Source: Pseudovibrio exalbescens DSM 16456
Lineage (GTDB): Bacteria; Pseudomonadota; Alphaproteobacteria; Rhizobiales; Stappiaceae
Direction of reading: 5' to 3'
Length of the DNA stretch: 63,635 nucleotides
Assembly: GCF_000422785.1 (NCBI RefSeq)
Contig: NZ_AUGS01000020.1
Location: 1-63,635 of the forward strand
Shown here: positions 13,454 to 40,269 of the stretch, piece after piece
How positions within the stretch are numbered: position 1 is the stretch's first letter
Layout of the letters: every line of letters starts with the position of its first letter
The notes under the pieces: model-generated
The model's database searches: none
Told to the model about the DNA's origin: nothing
Seen by the model: only the letters and a program-made list of their open reading frames with translations
Program-made: the position numbers and the translations under genes

Positions 13454-14455
13454 ATGTCTGAGAAGGTTGAAAGAGCAATGGGCAACAAAACGGCAGAAAT
13501 GATGGAACGTGGTGTGCTGACGGAAAGTTTGACGCAACAGGATGCGGCACAGCAGGACGCGGGTTCCGTGTCTCAGGTGTCGCTCTCTCAGAAATTTGCC
13601 TCTGTACAGCTGAACAGTCTGGATCTGGAGTTCGATGATGACACCCGCGCGCTATGGGTTTTCATGAAAGGCAAGGGGCGCCCATGCTTTTCTCCGGAGC
13701 TCCTGAGTGATCTTGCAGGGGCCCAAGTGGTCATCAAGCGGCTTTATGAAACCTATCGCCGCGCCATGCCGGAGCCGATCCGCTACAACGTCATCGCATC
13801 GCGCAATCCGTTGATCTACAACTTGGGGGGTGACCTGGGCCTGTTTGTCGATCTGATCAAACAGCGGGAACGTCTTGCGCTTGAGAAATACGCCGTTGAC
13901 TGCATTGATGTTGTTTATGGCAACGCCATATCGCTGAATTTGCCTTATATAACGGTCGGTTTGGTTCAGGGCGATGCGCTGGGCGGGGGGTTCGAAACGG
14001 CCCTGTCCTGTGATGTGATCATTGCCGAACGTCAGGCTAAGTTCGGATTGCCCGAAGTCTTGTTCAACCTGTTTCCGGGGATGGGGGCCTACAGCTTCCT
14101 GAGCCGGAAAGTTGACGGCCACCGCGCTGAAGAAATGATGATGAGCGGCCGAATATACACCGCAGAAGAGCTTCAGGAACTGGGGTTGGTTGATGTGGTT
14201 GTTGAGCCCGGAGAAGGCGTTGCCGCAACACAGGACTACATCCAGCGCAACATGCGCAAGTTCAACGCCCACTCCGCAATCTATCGCAGTGGTCGGGTTG
14301 TAAAGCCGGTTTCCTATCAGGAATTGCGACAGGTTGTAGATCTGTGGGTAGAGGCTGCCCTGCAACTGTCATCGTCGGACCTGCGCAAGATGGAGCGGTT
14401 GGTCAAGGCGCAGAACCGCTTTGATATTGATGCCAAGGATACATTGGCTCTTTGA
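13454..14455 (+). CDS. rpfF: RpfF-like DSF (cis-2-enoic acid signal) synthase, crotonase family
   Basis: The 333-residue crotonase-fold protein matches Xanthomonas RpfF across its length. IYNLGGDLGLFVDLI corresponds to VFNLGGDLALFCQLI. The block VQGDALGGGFETALSC corresponds to VQGNALGGGFEAALSC, and GLPEVLFNLFPGMGAYSF to GLPEVLFDLFPGMGAYSF. Glu181 and Glu201 have the same 20-residue spacing as catalytic Glu141/Glu161 of RpfF. RpfF makes diffusible signal factors by dehydrating 3-hydroxyacyl-ACP and releasing the free cis-2 acid. A Gln/Ser-rich N-terminal extension of about 45 residues is extra. The start is uncertain (ATG 13454, GTG 13451 or ATG 13484). It converges on the RpfC-like kinase, as in Xanthomonas. 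The signal's chain length is unknown. Confidence 0.88.
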   Translation: MSEKVERAMGNKTAEMMERGVLTESLTQQDAAQQDAGSVSQVSLSQKFASVQLNSLDLEFDDDTRALWVFMKGKGRPCFSPELLSDLAGAQVVIKRLYETYRRAMPEPIRYNVIASRNPLIYNLGGDLGLFVDLIKQRERLALEKYAVDCIDVVYGNAISLNLPYITVGLVQGDALGGGFETALSCDVIIAERQAKFGLPEVLFNLFPGMGAYSFLSRKVDGHRAEEMMMSGRIYTAEELQELGLVDVVVEPGEGVAATQDYIQRNMRKFNAHSAIYRSGRVVKPVSYQELRQVVDLWVEAALQLSSSDLRKMERLVKAQNRFDIDAKDTLAL

Positions 14456-14467
14456 CGCCCTGTTAAG

Positions 14468-14506
14468 AGCACCGGTTCATTTGCGTAATTGCACCGGTGC
14501 TGCTTC
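14468..14506 (+). terminator. Terminator hairpin between rpfF and rpfC
   Basis: A 9-bp perfect stem AGCACCGGT/ACCGGTGCT (14468-14476 with 14493-14501, 16-base loop) is followed by GCTTCTTCT on the plus strand. It overlaps the last codons of the convergent kinase gene. The T-run is interrupted, so efficiency is uncertain. Confidence 0.5.
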
Positions 14507-17080
14507 TTCTGGTTGGCCAAGATTCAGCGCATAGGCATGCAAACCAGCTCGCGCCTTTTCGAGGGCGTCTGCGAGTTTGGTCACCATGGCATCGCCTTCG
14601 GCCATCAGGTCGGGCGCGCGTGCCGTTTCCCAGCGCTGACACAGCGCGGCCACATCTTGTGCGCCAATGTTGGCCGAGGCCGAGTTCAACGCATGAGCCT
14701 TGTCCCGAATGGCGATCGGGTCCTTGTCGTTTACCGCAGCGCTGAATTCCTCCAGCAAGGTTGCTGCATCCTCCAGATAATCTGCGATGACTCCGCTCAC
14801 AAAGTCCGCTCCACCCAGATTGGCCAGATTGTCCAGACAGGTATAATCGATTGCGCCACACGGCTGCGACGGTGACGACGGGAACGCAGCCACGCTGACC
14901 AGCTTGTCTGCCGTGGCTGCGGTGTCTGTTTCCGGTGTGCGCCGTCCAAGTTCCGTTACGGTGTTGTCAATCAACGTCAACAGGACATCTGGCTCAATCG
15001 GCTTGGTTGCGCAAGCGTCCGCACCTGCTTCCAGAGCCCGCCGCGTGGCCGCGGGTGTCGCGTCGGCGGTGAGCGCAACGATGGGCAAATGCCCTTCACC
15101 ATGTTCCGTAAGGCGGTGCAACTTGATGGCTTCCAAACCATTGATCACCGGCATGTTCAGATCCATCAAGGCGAGGTCAAAAACCTCTTCTTCCATGGCA
15201 TCCAGCGCTTCTTCTCCGTTGTCAACAATGGTGCAGTGGTGGCCGCCGCGCTCCAAGATCTTGCTTATGACGCGCTGATTGGTCTTGTTGTCTTCGGCAA
15301 CCAGAACGCTGAGGCCCTTGTGGGTTTGATAAATGCGTTCAGCAAGGGTGGGCGGTTCGGCTGCTTGCTGGGGGGGTCGAGCCCCGGTGATTTGAAGGAC
15401 GCGATAAAGATCCTCCTCGGCGCGCGCGAGGTCCAACAGGCTTCGGCACCTGTTGTAGACATTCTCGACCTCCTCCAGAGGTGTCTCGGTTGTTTTCAAA
15501 AGAACCAGATGAGCGTCAATGAGACGATCTGGAGACTGGATGGCGTGCCCCAGCACTTCAATTGGCCCATGGACACATTGTTCATCGATGAACAGGATCG
15601 CTTCTCGCACGCCCTGAACTGTCAGCTCGCCCAACATGGCGATTGCCGCGCTGGGCGTTGGTGCATGCCGCGCGCTGATGCCGAACCGGGCCAGACCTTT
15701 GGCAAGGCGCTCCGCGATCTGGTCGTGCTCCGTCACAATGAAGTAAATTGCTTCGGCAAACACAAGCCGCTCCGGTCGGGTGGAAGCAACCCGCTTGACC
15801 GGTATCTCAAGGGTGAAGGTACTGCCAATCCCCACCGTACTGTCGACGCTGATGCTGCCTCCCATGCCTTCCACCACCTGTTTTACGATGGTCAGGCCCA
15901 GGCCGGTGCCGCCAAAGCGATCGACGATGGTTTCGTCTGCTTGCGTGAAGCGTTCAAAGATGCGTGTTTGAGCCTCCTCGGAAATGCCAATTCCGCTGTC
16001 GGCCACCTGAATGACGAGATGAGCATCGCTGCCACTGTTGTCGCGTTGAAAAGCGCGAATGGCCACGAAACCAGAGTGCGTGAACTTGAGTGCGTTTCCG
16101 GTCAGGTTGATGAGGACTTCATGCAGATGCCGGTGATCACCCACCAGCATGTCCTCGACTTCGGGGCTGATAAAACGGCAGAAGCGCAGGTTTCTGGCGC
16201 GCGCTTGCCCGCCCACAATCTGTGCAGTTTCGCGAAAAAGCTCATCCACACTGAACACGCCATGCTTGATGTCCAGCTCTCCTGCCTCAATGCGGGAAAA
16301 ATCAAGAATGCCGTCGATCAGGGAAAGCAGGGACTGTGCTGAACTCTTGATGGTCACCGTCATCTCATGCTGGTCTTGATCCAGCTTGGTGTCCTTGAGC
16401 ATTTCGCCCATGCCGATAATGGCGTTGAGCGGTGTCCTCAATTCATGACTGACGGCGGTGAGGAACTGTGTCTTGGCCTGGCTGGCGGCTTCGGCCGCGC
16501 GCTTGGCACGGGATAAATCCCGGATCAATTTCGCGGCGTAGATCGGCACAATGATCAAACAAGCCAGTAGCCCCCAACCCAACTGTGCCTGTTCCTGCCA
16601 ATAAGGGGTAGTGAGCACCAGCGAAAACCCTGCCACCGACAACAGGCAGGACATGACGAGGTATTTGATGCCGAAACGAAACCCATTGCCAAAGATCACC
16701 CAAAGATAGATAGGGAAGGTGATTGCAACAAACTGCCCGCCTGCGTACATGGCGAGGGTCAACATGCCCAAATCCATGACCATGGCGCATGTGCGTCGCA
16801 CGGCGTTGGGTTTTTTTGCCCGCAGCACCAGAATGAACAATACGGCCGTGCCCACCAGAAACGACAGAAGCATGGTGGTGCCGAAATTGTGTCTGTCGAT
16901 GAGGAAACGGGCATCCGACATGGCATAGGGCATCAACACCAACGCAATGAGTACCCGGTTCAGGCTCATTTCCGTCTCGCCGCCTGTTGCCGCGTTAGAG
17001 CGTCTGAAGGCAGCATAAGCGTTGCTTACCAGTCGCGTCAGGCGTTCCAAGGCGGGTTTCAGAGGCGTGTCCTTGCGCAT
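14477..17080 (-). CDS. rpfC: RpfC-like hybrid sensor histidine kinase (TM-HK-REC-HPt)
   Basis: The 867-residue protein opens with a membrane input domain (five or six helices, about residues 41-185) closely resembling RpfC, including FGNGFRFGIKYL and LTTPYWQEQAQLGWGLL. A HisKA domain follows (H212, SHELRTPLNAIIGMGE), then an ATPase (N329 region, DSGIGI, GGTGLGL), a receiver at about 590-705 (phospho-Asp640 in LMDLNMP) and an HPt domain (His796, KAHALNSASANIG). Residues about 435-570 form an extra receiver-like segment without an obvious phospho-Asp, absent from the 726-residue Xanthomonas protein. RpfC senses DSF and phosphorelays to RpfG; here the likely partner is encoded 21 bp upstream. 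It converges on rpfF. Confidence 0.85.
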   Translation of the reverse strand: MRKDTPLKPALERLTRLVSNAYAAFRRSNAATGGETEMSLNRVLIALVLMPYAMSDARFLIDRHNFGTTMLLSFLVGTAVLFILVLRAKKPNAVRRTCAMVMDLGMLTLAMYAGGQFVAITFPIYLWVIFGNGFRFGIKYLVMSCLLSVAGFSLVLTTPYWQEQAQLGWGLLACLIIVPIYAAKLIRDLSRAKRAAEAASQAKTQFLTAVSHELRTPLNAIIGMGEMLKDTKLDQDQHEMTVTIKSSAQSLLSLIDGILDFSRIEAGELDIKHGVFSVDELFRETAQIVGGQARARNLRFCRFISPEVEDMLVGDHRHLHEVLINLTGNALKFTHSGFVAIRAFQRDNSGSDAHLVIQVADSGIGISEEAQTRIFERFTQADETIVDRFGGTGLGLTIVKQVVEGMGGSISVDSTVGIGSTFTLEIPVKRVASTRPERLVFAEAIYFIVTEHDQIAERLAKGLARFGISARHAPTPSAAIAMLGELTVQGVREAILFIDEQCVHGPIEVLGHAIQSPDRLIDAHLVLLKTTETPLEEVENVYNRCRSLLDLARAEEDLYRVLQITGARPPQQAAEPPTLAERIYQTHKGLSVLVAEDNKTNQRVISKILERGGHHCTIVDNGEEALDAMEEEVFDLALMDLNMPVINGLEAIKLHRLTEHGEGHLPIVALTADATPAATRRALEAGADACATKPIEPDVLLTLIDNTVTELGRRTPETDTAATADKLVSVAAFPSSPSQPCGAIDYTCLDNLANLGGADFVSGVIADYLEDAATLLEEFSAAVNDKDPIAIRDKAHALNSASANIGAQDVAALCQRWETARAPDLMAEGDAMVTKLADALEKARAGLHAYALNLGQPEEAAPVQLRK

Positions 17081-17101
17081 CCGCAGTCGTTTCCGTTCTC
17101 G

Positions 17102-19255
17102 TTATCCGGTACTGGCCACCAGTAGCGAGCTTTTGGAGTCCAAAAGCTCACGAAACTGATCTGCTGGCATGGGACGGCCATAATAGTAGCCTTGCGCATA
17201 AAGGCAGCCGGCCTCGCGCAAATAGGCAACTTGTTCGGGCGTTTCGATGCCTTCGGCAATGACCTCCAGTCCAAGGCTCTTGCCAAGACCTATTATGGCG
17301 TTGGCAATGGCGGCATCATTGGGGTCGTGCTCGAGGTTCTTGATGAAACAACGATCGATCTTCAACCCGTTGATGGAGAAGCGGCTGAGATAGGACAACG
17401 AGGAATAGCCCGTGCCGAAGTCATCTATAAAGACACGCGATCCCATGCGCTGAATCTGTTTCAGCTCCCGCTCCACCACCTCCGAACCGTGCATCACGAT
17501 ATGCTCGGTGATTTCGATCTCCAGAGCCGAGGCCCTGAGGCCGGAATTGTCGAGTGCCATCTCCAGAAGGCTGGGAACGTTCTGCTTGCGAAACTGAGTT
17601 GGTGACAGGTTGACCGCAACCCTGAGGTCATCATGCCCCATATCATGCCAGCGTTTTGCTTCGGCGCAGGCGGCCGTGACCACCCATTCGCTGATGGGAA
17701 TGATGAGGCCGGTCTCTTCGGCCATGGGCAGGAAAACGAGCGGCGACACGACGCCGTGTCCCGGCCGGTTCCAGCGCAGCAAGGCTTCGGCGCCGACAAT
17801 CTCGTTGGTTTGCAGGTTCACCTGAGGTTGGTAGTAAAGCTCGAATTGTTCGGACAAGACCGCATGGCGCAGTTCTGCTTCCAGCGCGATGCTTTGACGG
17901 GCGTCATGGTCCATCGTGGTTGAGAACAGGCGGTAGACATTGCCTCCCTCCGCCTTGGCTTGATACATGGCCATGTCCGCGTGCCGCAGCAGTTCCTCAC
18001 TGCCGATGCCGTCTTCCGGATAACGGGTGATGCCGATGCTGGCGCCAGTTCGAAGTTCCTGGCCATCAATGTAAAACGGCTCTTCAAGCACGTCCACGAT
18101 GCGCCGCGCTAGTGTCAATGTATCATCCGGCCCGCGAATGTCCGTTTGCAAAATGGCGAATTCGTCGCCGCCCATGCGTGCCACCAGATCCGACTGCTTC
18201 ACGCAGCTTTGCAGGCGCTCGCCAACCATTTCCAGAAGTCGGTCGCCGGATCGGTGCCCCAGTGCATCGTTGATTGGCTTGAACCGGTCCAGATCCAGAA
18301 AGTGCAGGGCGAAAATCTTGCCGCTTTTTCGGCAGGCGTTGATCTGTTCTTCAATGCGCAGCGTCAGCAGTGTCCGGTTCGGCAGGTCCGTCAGGCTGTC
18401 GTGGTGGGCAATGTGCAGAAGATGGGCTTCGGCCCGTTTCCGGTCCGTGATTTCGGTGGAGGTGGTGACCACATGCGTGACATTGCCATAACCATCCAGC
18501 AATGGGCTCTTGGTGACCAGAAAAAAACGGATATGGCCCATCGGGTCAGGGATCTCCACCTCATACGGCGGCAGGGCGCGCCCGCTGGAGAAGATCTTCA
18601 AGTCCAGCCGCTTGTTGCGCTCGCGCGCGACTTCCGTCAACTGGCCATAAAAGTCCAGCCCCACCCATTCGTGGGAGGGCTTGTTCATGAACTCGCCCCA
18701 GGCCGCATTGGCAAAGGCACAGCGCCCGCCAGTGTCTACCGCAGTGACCATGGCAGGCAGGCTGTCGATGACTTGTCCCAGGCGCTCGATGGAGTTGCGC
18801 AGCTCTTCTTCGTGCTGGCGCTCCACGTTCATCAACTCGCGCTCCAGATTGGACGCGCGCGATTTGGCGGCGAGTTGTTCCTTGCGCAAGGCCAGCAAGT
18901 TGCGGGCCCGGCTCAGAAATTCGTTATGGTCAACGGGACTTTGCAGAAAATCGGTGGCCCCGGCTTCCAGCGCTTTTATGCGGAAGGTCCTGTCCGAAAA
19001 CGCGGTGATGACCATGACCGGCACGTCCTGACAGTCCTCTATGGCGCGGATGTGCGTTGTCAGGTCGGCGCCGTCCATTTCCGGCATGCTGTAATCAGTC
19101 ACAACCAGATCCGGCGCCTGATGCTTCATGAAGGCAATCGCTTCAGACGGAGATGCAAAACAATGTGTTTTCACATCCTGAGCGACAGCAAGAGCCAGCC
19201 TCTTCAGGATGTTTCTATTAATGGCACGGTCATCGATGATTACGATGATCGACAT
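17102..19255 (-). CDS. REC-PAS-GGDEF-EAL cyclic di-GMP regulator in the rpfG position
   Basis: The 717-residue protein has a receiver (residues 1-120, Asp54 in VVTDYSMPEMDG) very like that of RpfG (ALEAGATDFLQSPVDHNEFLSRARNLLALR). A coiled segment, a PAS/PAC domain (about 160-275), GGDEF (intact, 362-366) and EAL (490-492; DDFGTGYSSLSYL, QGYYYGRP) follow. Both catalytic domains look competent, so it may make or break cyclic di-GMP. The usual receiver Lys before Pro is replaced (QSP), and the inhibitory RxxD is KQSD. The start is the ATG at 19255, five bases after GGTGAAG. It is the first gene of a two-gene operon with the RpfC-like kinase and is presumably its phospho-target. It replaces the HD-GYP protein RpfG. 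Confidence 0.88.
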   Translation of the reverse strand: MSIIVIIDDRAINRNILKRLALAVAQDVKTHCFASPSEAIAFMKHQAPDLVVTDYSMPEMDGADLTTHIRAIEDCQDVPVMVITAFSDRTFRIKALEAGATDFLQSPVDHNEFLSRARNLLALRKEQLAAKSRASNLERELMNVERQHEEELRNSIERLGQVIDSLPAMVTAVDTGGRCAFANAAWGEFMNKPSHEWVGLDFYGQLTEVARERNKRLDLKIFSSGRALPPYEVEIPDPMGHIRFFLVTKSPLLDGYGNVTHVVTTSTEITDRKRAEAHLLHIAHHDSLTDLPNRTLLTLRIEEQINACRKSGKIFALHFLDLDRFKPINDALGHRSGDRLLEMVGERLQSCVKQSDLVARMGGDEFAILQTDIRGPDDTLTLARRIVDVLEEPFYIDGQELRTGASIGITRYPEDGIGSEELLRHADMAMYQAKAEGGNVYRLFSTTMDHDARQSIALEAELRHAVLSEQFELYYQPQVNLQTNEIVGAEALLRWNRPGHGVVSPLVFLPMAEETGLIIPISEWVVTAACAEAKRWHDMGHDDLRVAVNLSPTQFRKQNVPSLLEMALDNSGLRASALEIEITEHIVMHGSEVVERELKQIQRMGSRVFIDDFGTGYSSLSYLSRFSINGLKIDRCFIKNLEHDPNDAAIANAIIGLGKSLGLEVIAEGIETPEQVAYLREAGCLYAQGYYYGRPMPADQFRELLDSKSSLLVASTG

Positions 19256-38970: not shown

Positions 38971-40269
38971 TCAGGCCGCGATGATGCGGTTGCGGCCAGA
39001 TTCTTTGGCCTCATACAGACACCTGTCTGCAGTGCGCAAGGCATCGGACAAGGTGGCATCTGCCCCCGATGACAAGCCTACACTGATGGTGGAGTTGAAG
39101 ACTTGCTCATCATGGCCGGGCAGCGTGATGGGCATGGAACTTCGCAGTTCACTCAGGAAGGCCCGGCAGGTCAACTCGTCAATATCGGGAAAGGCGACAC
39201 AAAACTCATCCCCACCGATGCGCACGGCCTTGGCGCCTTTTGGCAGAAAGTCGCGAATGCGGTCAGCAATCGCGATGATCAGCTTGTCGCCGGTCTCATG
39301 CCCAAACTGATCGTTGATCTGCTTGAACTTGTCGATATCAATCATGGCATAGCGCATGGACAGACCCTGCTGCGCCATCTCTTGATGCTGCTTGTCAATC
39401 TCGTCGTGCAAATAGCGGCGGTTGAACAGTCCGGTCATCGGATCCTTGTTCGCCAGTTCCTTGAGTTCGCGGATACGTTCAAGACTTTCCAGGTTCTGAG
39501 AGATCCGCAGGATCAATTCTTCCGGTGTGCAGCTTTTGGCAACAAAGTCACTCGCGCCGCACTTTAAGAACTTGGCGGTAAGTTCAGCACTTGGCGTTGC
39601 GGAAATCCCAACAATGGCCAGTTCGTCGAAATTACGGAACCTGCGTGCTCGTTTCAGGGCTTCAAATCCGCTTATATCCGGCAATCCGTGATCAAGGATC
39701 AACAGCTGGATCTGCGGGTTGGCCTCAAGCAACCTGAGACCCTCCTCCCCACAGTCGGCCGTATGAACCTGAAGGCAGTAACGTTCGAGCCTTTCCTTCA
39801 AGATGGCTCGCTGCGCCCGCGCATCATCAACAACAAGAACGTGGGTGCGCATGTTCTTCTCAATTCGCTGAACAAGCTCCACCAGATAACTGAGGCTTGC
39901 CGGCGAGTCCTTCAGAACGTAATCAACGATACCCTTTTGAAGAATGGTTGCCCGCGTCTGCTCGTCAAAGCGCGCTGAAAAGACAATGGTGGGCAAACCG
40001 GCCTGAATGGCCAGATCAACCACCTCGCCATCCTGTGCGTCCGGCAAGGTCAGGTCCACCAAGGCCAGAAAAGGTTCGAAATCCGACCGCGCCAACAGCT
40101 CCTGCGCCTCAGCCAGAGTGCCGGCCGTTGTGACATCAAACAAGCCGCACTTGTCCAGTTCCGACTGGATGATACGGGCAAAGAAGTGCGCGTCCTCTAC
40201 GAGCAAGATGGGCCGTTTGTGCGCCCCTTTCTTCGCGACCATCTGACTTTGCATTGATATATCCAACAT
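38971..40269 (-). CDS. Two-receiver diguanylate cyclase (REC-REC-GGDEF, PleD-like architecture)
   Basis: The 432-residue protein has two receiver domains (about residues 20-135 with LALVDLTLPDAQDG, and 142-260 with LLILDHGLPDISGF) and a GGDEF domain (MTGLFNRRYLHDEI...VRIGGDEFCVAFPDID). It should make cyclic di-GMP on phosphorylation, as PleD does. The residues before GGDEF (PKGA) do not form an inhibitory RxxD site. The start is uncertain among ATGs at 40269, 40254 and 40242; none has a strong SD. No kinase is adjacent, and its link with the rpf-like locus at 13-19 kb is open. Confidence 0.87.
   Translation of the reverse strand: MLDISMQSQMVAKKGAHKRPILLVEDAHFFARIIQSELDKCGLFDVTTAGTLAEAQELLARSDFEPFLALVDLTLPDAQDGEVVDLAIQAGLPTIVFSARFDEQTRATILQKGIVDYVLKDSPASLSYLVELVQRIEKNMRTHVLVVDDARAQRAILKERLERYCLQVHTADCGEEGLRLLEANPQIQLLILDHGLPDISGFEALKRARRFRNFDELAIVGISATPSAELTAKFLKCGASDFVAKSCTPEELILRISQNLESLERIRELKELANKDPMTGLFNRRYLHDEIDKQHQEMAQQGLSMRYAMIDIDKFKQINDQFGHETGDKLIIAIADRIRDFLPKGAKAVRIGGDEFCVAFPDIDELTCRAFLSELRSSMPITLPGHDEQVFNSTISVGLSSGADATLSDALRTADRCLYEAKESGRNRIIAA

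Follow-up and report, generated by a model that had tools for sequence, protein, structure and literature searches.

The 63,635-nucleotide stretch of DNA analysed here (the window; contig NZ_AUGS01000020.1 of Pseudovibrio exalbescens DSM 16456) carries, at positions 13454-19255, a three-gene locus that is probably a Xanthomonas-type Rpf module in which the output of RpfG has been exchanged. In Xanthomonas, rpfG-rpfC is convergent with rpfF, and RpfG is a REC-HD-GYP protein; in Burkholderia, RpfR (PAS-GGDEF-EAL) is the direct receptor of the Burkholderia diffusible signal factor (BDSF). A reading of the window made without database searches (the sequence-only reading) had proposed a hybrid diffusible signal factor (DSF) and cyclic di-GMP (c-di-GMP) circuit, Xanthomonas-like in order and Burkholderia-like in output. 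Our analysis favors, as the likely explanation, a DSF-type autoinduction module of the RpfF/RpfC/RpfG kind that has a REC-PAS-GGDEF-EAL protein in the place of RpfG and would control c-di-GMP with non-standard sensing and switching. By sequence comparison, the locus is assigned in part to the Xanthomonas Rpf system and is predicted to work like it: RpfF and RpfC belong by family, and RpfG by its receiver, not by its output.

Organization of the locus

The arrangement read from the letters, with its domains and Xanthomonas-like order (rpfF convergent with regulator-kinase), was confirmed by open reading frame (ORF) coordinates and Pfam. The RpfF-like gene on the + strand and the kinase gene on the - strand lie tail to tail with a 21-bp gap. 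The REC-PAS-GGDEF-EAL gene, also on the - strand, is upstream of the kinase gene, and its stop is 21 bp from the kinase start. Pfam assigned ECH_1/ECH_2 to the crotonase, HisKA-HATPase-REC-Hpt to the kinase, and REC-PAS_4-GGDEF-EAL to the regulator. The features are as follows (aa, amino acids).

13454..14455, + strand: RpfF-type crotonase, predicted DSF-family synthase; ATG 13454 or GTG 13451, stop 14455 (NF006452, PDB 3m6m, tree, 16/16 RpfF-specific residues)
13994..14056, + strand: catalytic Glu182 (13994-13996) and Glu202 (14054-14056), numbered from 13451 (3m6m alignment, RpfF rows)
14477..17080, - strand: RpfC-type hybrid histidine kinase, 867 aa, with membrane-type input, HisKA, HATPase, REC, and Hpt (Pfam, input relation, kinase tree)
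16511..17080, - strand: kinase input domain, residues 1-190, which forms a bundle of long helices in the model (AlphaFold2, invariant residues)
16967..16990, - strand: residues 31-38, where the DSF-contact motif of RpfC aligns, with Glu35 the sole kept contact of five (N-terminal alignment, residues of PMC5391125)
17102..19255, - strand: atypical response regulator REC-PAS-GGDEF-EAL, 717 aa, ATG 19255, stop 17102 (Pfam; GGDEF, EAL, and DDFGTG motifs; start codon context)
18881..19255, - strand: RpfG-type receiver; phospho-acceptor Asp54 (19094-19096), Lys replaced by Ser106 (18938-18940) (receiver tree, alignment, genome search)
18434..18766, - strand: PAS_4 domain lacking the BDSF contacts of RpfR (Pfam, profile and residue alignments)
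18158..18172, - strand: GGDEF motif, residues 362-366; the I-site before it is KQSD, not RxxD (motif reading)
17780..17788, - strand: EAL motif, residues 490-492 (motif reading)

RpfF-type crotonase

Sequence relationships place the window crotonase in the RpfF family, apart from general crotonases. The tree held 104 rows (99 RpfF-family rows, including the window, and 5 general crotonases of its own genome) and was built by a quick method, with the Shimodaira-Hasegawa-like approximate likelihood ratio test (SH-aLRT) as the only support. The RpfF family was split from the five crotonases at 99, and the window protein, lying inside the family as the sequence-only reading had proposed, grouped with Pseudovibrio (98); the deep branching order was poorly resolved, and some branches were long. 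Among the relatives listed, the nearest named ones were six Pseudovibrio loci (54-68%), and another genome of the genus reached 77%, which points to a Pseudovibrio-like host in the family Stappiaceae.

The protein scored 358.8 bits against NF006452 (cut-off 177), and its best PDB match was RpfF 3m6m (2.7e-59). All 16 RpfF-specific positions, defined as those kept in 93% or more of the 99 RpfF rows and in no more than one of the five other crotonases, were present. The two catalytic Glu residues that had been noticed at 20-residue spacing are real (residues 182 and 202), and Glu occupies these positions in 99/99 and 98/99 RpfF rows. The pair alone is weak evidence for RpfF, because the same positions are Glu in 2/5 and 3/5 of the other crotonases of the genome.

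RpfC-type kinase

From its putative membrane input domain, its HisKA-HATPase-REC-Hpt order, and its place adjoining rpfF, the kinase is classified as RpfC type. The N-terminal region matched no Pfam family above its cut-off. A phmmer search with the window input domain matched the kinases of 8/8 loci that combine RpfF with REC-HD-GYP (53-78 bits; three of the eight are near-identical), and together with the alignment this supports the relation to RpfC claimed earlier. The AlphaFold2 model of the input domain had a predicted local distance difference test score (pLDDT) of 93.6; W127, G131, G133, R135, and G137 were invariant among 38 sequences, and Foldseek found no PDB match to the model at E <= 0.001.

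Two unusual kinase arrangements were seen in other loci. The RpfC-type kinase at L119:4205-6976 has the input domain twice in one open frame. Inquilinus-like loci (L037:12803-14912; L058:4145-5068; L065:12902-14649) carry, between kinase and regulator, additional genes that have pieces of RpfC-type input and of kinase.

RpfG-type receiver and predicted c-di-GMP output

A receiver tree separated a 76-row set (67 module regulators, the window, and 8 RpfG) from other receivers at SH-aLRT 97, and the module regulators formed one group (99) inside this set. The outgroups were 38 other receiver rows from the window's own genome, some of them duplicated, and 15 hybrid-kinase receivers; the method was quick and used 125 columns. 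Among own-genome rows (the 30 best of 50 receiver matches), the window receiver was the best match for 6/6 RpfG receivers tested. In a search of 398 Pseudomonadota genomes, the best 25 receiver loci from outside the module, known RpfG included, comprised 20 REC-HD-GYP, one GGDEF-EAL, and four unclassified proteins. The tree and this search bear out the RpfG-like receiver of the sequence-only reading. Given this kinship, the simplest history is probably an exchange of output on an RpfG-type receiver.

The conserved receiver Lys is replaced in all 67 module regulators (Ser in 61, Thr in 5, Ala in 1), a new point that goes beyond the sequence-only reading. The same position is Lys in 8/8 RpfG, 15/15 hybrid-kinase receivers, 36/38 background rows (Thr in two, one protein counted twice), and 24/25 inspected outside loci (Arg in one). 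The acidic pair and phospho-Asp are kept in 66/67 module regulators, one being gapped, and the Thr in 67/67. The window receiver keeps DD, D, and T and has Ser106 at the Lys position.

The window regulator has the GGDEF, EAL, and DDFGTG motifs. Simple patterns found them in 48, 53, and 45, respectively, of 55 rows (2 duplicates included). The RxxD I-site occurs in 20/51 relatives. The first five NCBIfam matches of the regulator are phosphodiesterases, all under cut-off, and therefore c-di-GMP breakdown is just a lean of the predicted output.

Distribution of the module

Gene order was tabulated for the best 80 of at least 584 RpfF relatives, a sample biased to close RpfF kin. RpfF, an RpfC-type kinase, and a REC-PAS-GGDEF-EAL regulator occurred together in 51/80 loci, and 45 of the 51 were convergent. 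The other 29 comprised one with the regulator but no kinase in the locus, nine with REC-PAS-kinase, one with REC-kinase, three with REC-PAS only, one with REC only, two with a kinase but no recognised regulator, and 12 with neither; several were cut by contig ends. Record titles among the RpfF relatives include Pseudovibrio, Stappia, Gluconacetobacter, Roseomonas, Microvirga, Rhizobium, and Aureimonas, and a few are non-alphaproteobacterial.

The window's family was represented by 37 genomes, of which 18 have the complete set of three genes and 19 have none of them (thresholds: RpfF E <= 1e-40, input domain 1e-10, REC-PAS 1e-25). Presence was clustered by genus, yet 4/16 genomes of the window's genus were without all three. 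In the 398-genome sample, nine genomes of the window's class had an RpfF match at 1e-40, and four of these nine had the module. The joint presence and absence in the 37 genomes and the kept gene order show an association above chance. Of the proposed hybrid circuit, the alphaproteobacterial module stands, as a widespread arrangement and not a local oddity, while its Burkholderia half is not supported.

Some loci depart from the common arrangement. Genome G191, of the same taxonomic order as the window, has the kinase and REC-PAS-GGDEF-EAL gene at L246:3690-8421, with no RpfF in the stretch around them and no genome-wide match at E <= 1e-40; this genome may be a listener that has no synthase itself. 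In G426, of the window's family, the regulator, kinase, and RpfF frames at L248:1-5544 look broken, by decay or poor sequence. In G427 (L247:2745-15533), RpfF lies ~7 kb from the regulator-kinase pair on the same strand, and the RpfF-regulator spacing in L019 is similar. L065, titled Mycobacterium sp. KBS0706, nests in Inquilinus in the RpfF, kinase, and receiver trees, and is probably mislabelled, or a case of transfer. Other rpfF neighbours are PAS_7-GGDEF-EAL, MerR-PAS-GGDEF-EAL, and hybrid-kinase proteins (L128:4547-6922; L130:7629-10121; L134:7780-9732; L211:3979-5856), which are possible further DSF outputs.

Proposed mechanism and evidence against it

In the proposed mechanism, RpfF would make a fatty-acid signal of the DSF type (cis-2-unsaturated) from 3-hydroxyacyl-acyl carrier protein, and the membrane kinase would sense it. 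Phosphate would pass from His212 to Asp640, to Hpt His796, and to Asp54 of the regulator, whose lysine-less receiver may respond in a non-standard manner to phosphorylation or to contact with the kinase as such. The regulator, with its PAS input, would then determine how far c-di-GMP is made or broken down, with a predicted lean to breakdown.

Several observations weigh against this mechanism, and they concern all three proteins. Against the RpfF equivalog NF053515, the window protein scored 234 bits, below the cut-off of 550. This cut-off was reached in 3/398 genomes, of which 62 have an RpfF match at E <= 1e-40. The RpfFs adjoining RpfR, close kin of the solved 5fus and 6dgn, also failed (181 and 188 bits), so failing it does not exclude DSF synthase function; the RpfF of L119, close to 7zq7 and 3m6m, scored 582 bits.

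The window kinase lacks most of the known contact motif. In Xanthomonas RpfC, Arg15, Asp17, Ser18, Glu19, and Gln22, near the membrane, are reported to be essential for DSF sensing, with Ser18Thr functional (PMC5391125). These positions were compared in 74 N-termini (the window and 73 loci); L013, L072, L120, and L135 were dropped for want of a recognised H-box, and the duplicates L126 and L127 were not included. At these five positions the window reads Ala, Gly, Gly, Glu, and Met and keeps one contact of five, a point missed by the sequence-only reading; Glu alone is kept in five other aligned Pseudovibrio loci (L009-L012, L014). The ligand or its site may therefore differ, and the sequence of the window kinase argues against simply carrying the Xanthomonas sensing site over to it. 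The motif is conserved in many relatives, a point in favor of the mechanism. Kinases paired with GGDEF-EAL (n = 50) had Arg in 29, Asp in 40, Ser/Thr in 21, Glu in 49, and Gln in 1 (Met in 32, Ile in 12). In HD-GYP-partner kinases (n = 6), Arg was found in 5, Asp in 6, Ser in 5, Glu in 6, and Gln in 6, and in kinases paired with a kinase-output regulator (n = 10), Arg in 9, Asp in 9, Ser in 10, Glu in 10, and Gln in 10. In seven further aligned rows the regulator was truncated, bare, or missing.

Gln22 follows output type in this alignment (10/10 kinase-output, 6/6 HD-GYP, 1/50 GGDEF-EAL). The correlation was rejected as independent evidence because the kinase tree gives just 1-2 independent pairs.

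As to the regulator, the receiver tree has few columns and one support measure, and RpfG is not one clade in it. A receiver without any one of five active-site residues is defined as a pseudo-receiver, a class estimated at ~6% of bacterial receivers of which some Asp-keeping members may be less efficient versions, according to PMC12632262. Since its conserved Lys, one of the five, is replaced by Ser, the window receiver classes as a pseudo-receiver by that definition, with the phospho-Asp retained. It resembles pseudo-receivers and other atypical response regulators in the missing residue and differs from them in the kept Asp and the cognate-looking phosphorelay kinase alongside. Signal entry by phosphorelay, as the sequence-only reading had it, needs a caveat because the receiver is without the conserved lysine.

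PAS domain and alternative explanations

One alternative keeps the hybrid circuit: the PAS domain would bind the fatty acid directly, as in RpfR, and the signal would enter twice. The window regulator shares the PAS-GGDEF-EAL order with RpfR. Xanthomonas RpfS is reported to bind DSF through a PAS_4 domain (PMC4504480), and the window PAS (model pLDDT 93.9) is also PAS_4. Foldseek with the PAS domain ranked the quorum-sensing receptor VqmA first, but 537 PDB chains matched at E <= 0.001, and the best 50 mix PAS and LOV. RpfR is described as binding BDSF via Ser169, Asn172, Arg187, and Asn202 (PMC6361424). These residues, located by spacing, were kept in all 10 RpfR rows, whereas the window keeps 0/4: the positions are Asn, Leu, a gap, and Thr by hhalign and Asn, Leu, Val, and Thr by MAFFT. 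Of 38 module rows, 20 have Ser at the Ser169 position and 1 has Asn at Asn202; most have Leu at Asn172 (26) and Glu at Arg187 (28). By these alignments, what module relatives retain is often no more than the first contact. A PDB profile search with the window PAS placed the RpfR PAS at rank 28 (1.6e-4). Five queries covering the RpfR N-terminal (FI) region detected every one of the five RpfR and, at E <= 10, none of the window's three proteins. RpfR-like PAS sensing in the window is unsupported by profile comparison, contact residues, and FI search, and we consider direct binding unlikely, although the PAS may have a fatty-acid pocket of a different kind. With a PAS_4-type PAS without RpfR contacts, no FI domain found, and an RpfG-related receiver, the Burkholderia-like output is not supported; on this sequence evidence the window regulator is not an RpfR.

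Less likely still, the crotonase would produce a signal of some type other than cis-2, or be an ordinary lipid enzyme, and the kinase would sense something else, such as membrane state. The degenerate contact motif in the kinases of the window and the five other aligned Pseudovibrio loci would fit this explanation, as would the missed equivalog cut-off; against it stand the full set of RpfF-specific residues and the co-occurrence and gene order that link the crotonase to an RpfC-type kinase. Least probable is the recruitment of a CfcR-like REC-PAS-GGDEF-EAL protein beside rpfC in place of an output exchange on RpfG: CfcR of Pseudomonas putida, the partner of CfcA, is described with the same architecture (PMC4951495), but RpfG receivers group with the module, and the best outside receivers are 20 REC-HD-GYP and one REC with GGDEF-EAL.

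Comparison with known systems

The module reading, an RpfG-type receiver with an exchanged output, can be set against three known systems. With the Rpf system of Xanthomonas and Stenotrophomonas, the window shares the convergent rpfF versus rpfG-rpfC order, the RpfC-type input and domain order, and the RpfG-type receiver; it differs by PAS-GGDEF-EAL for HD-GYP, Ser for the receiver Lys, and a degenerate DSF-contact motif. RpfF/RpfR of Burkholderia and Cronobacter share the RpfF family and a PAS-GGDEF-EAL output near rpfF; RpfR has FI-PAS-GGDEF-EAL without a receiver, whereas the window protein has a receiver, and the RpfR PAS contacts and FI were not found in it. CfcA/CfcR likewise pair a kinase with a REC-PAS-GGDEF-EAL regulator; this comparison is by description alone, and that description carries no rpfF link (PMC4951495).

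RpfC-RpfG has been listed from KEGG in alpha- and betaproteobacteria and Nitrospira (PMC8895600). DSF systems are reported in Leptospirillum and Acidithiobacillus (PMC9040811), rpfFCG with HD-GYP in Leptospirillum (PMC8357829), and an RpfB-like FadD in Bradyrhizobium (PMC10226988). Among the titles and abstract openings listed from the open-access literature, no description of the alphaproteobacterial rpfF module was found.

Should the module function as predicted, DSF-type quorum sensing would reach across many alphaproteobacterial families, and three different outputs driven by one receiver type would form a natural series. A broader picture may be ventured tentatively: a distinct, widespread third DSF arm in alphaproteobacteria, in which an RpfC-type kinase would act on an RpfG-derived, lysine-less pseudo-receiver with its phospho-Asp retained, so that the switch would not be canonical, with outputs swapped on a REC-PAS chassis (an HD-GYP ancestor, then PAS-kinase or PAS-GGDEF-EAL), and in which the Pseudovibrio sensor would have drifted from the known contact site for DSF, a hint that its fatty-acid signal may differ. 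Through the conserved loss of its receiver lysine, the module makes pseudo-receiver switching testable, with a ready-made kinase alongside.

Elsewhere in the window, at 39502-40209 (-), lies a frame of 437 aa that combines two receiver domains with a GGDEF or GGEEF motif and that we take to be PleD-like from its architecture.

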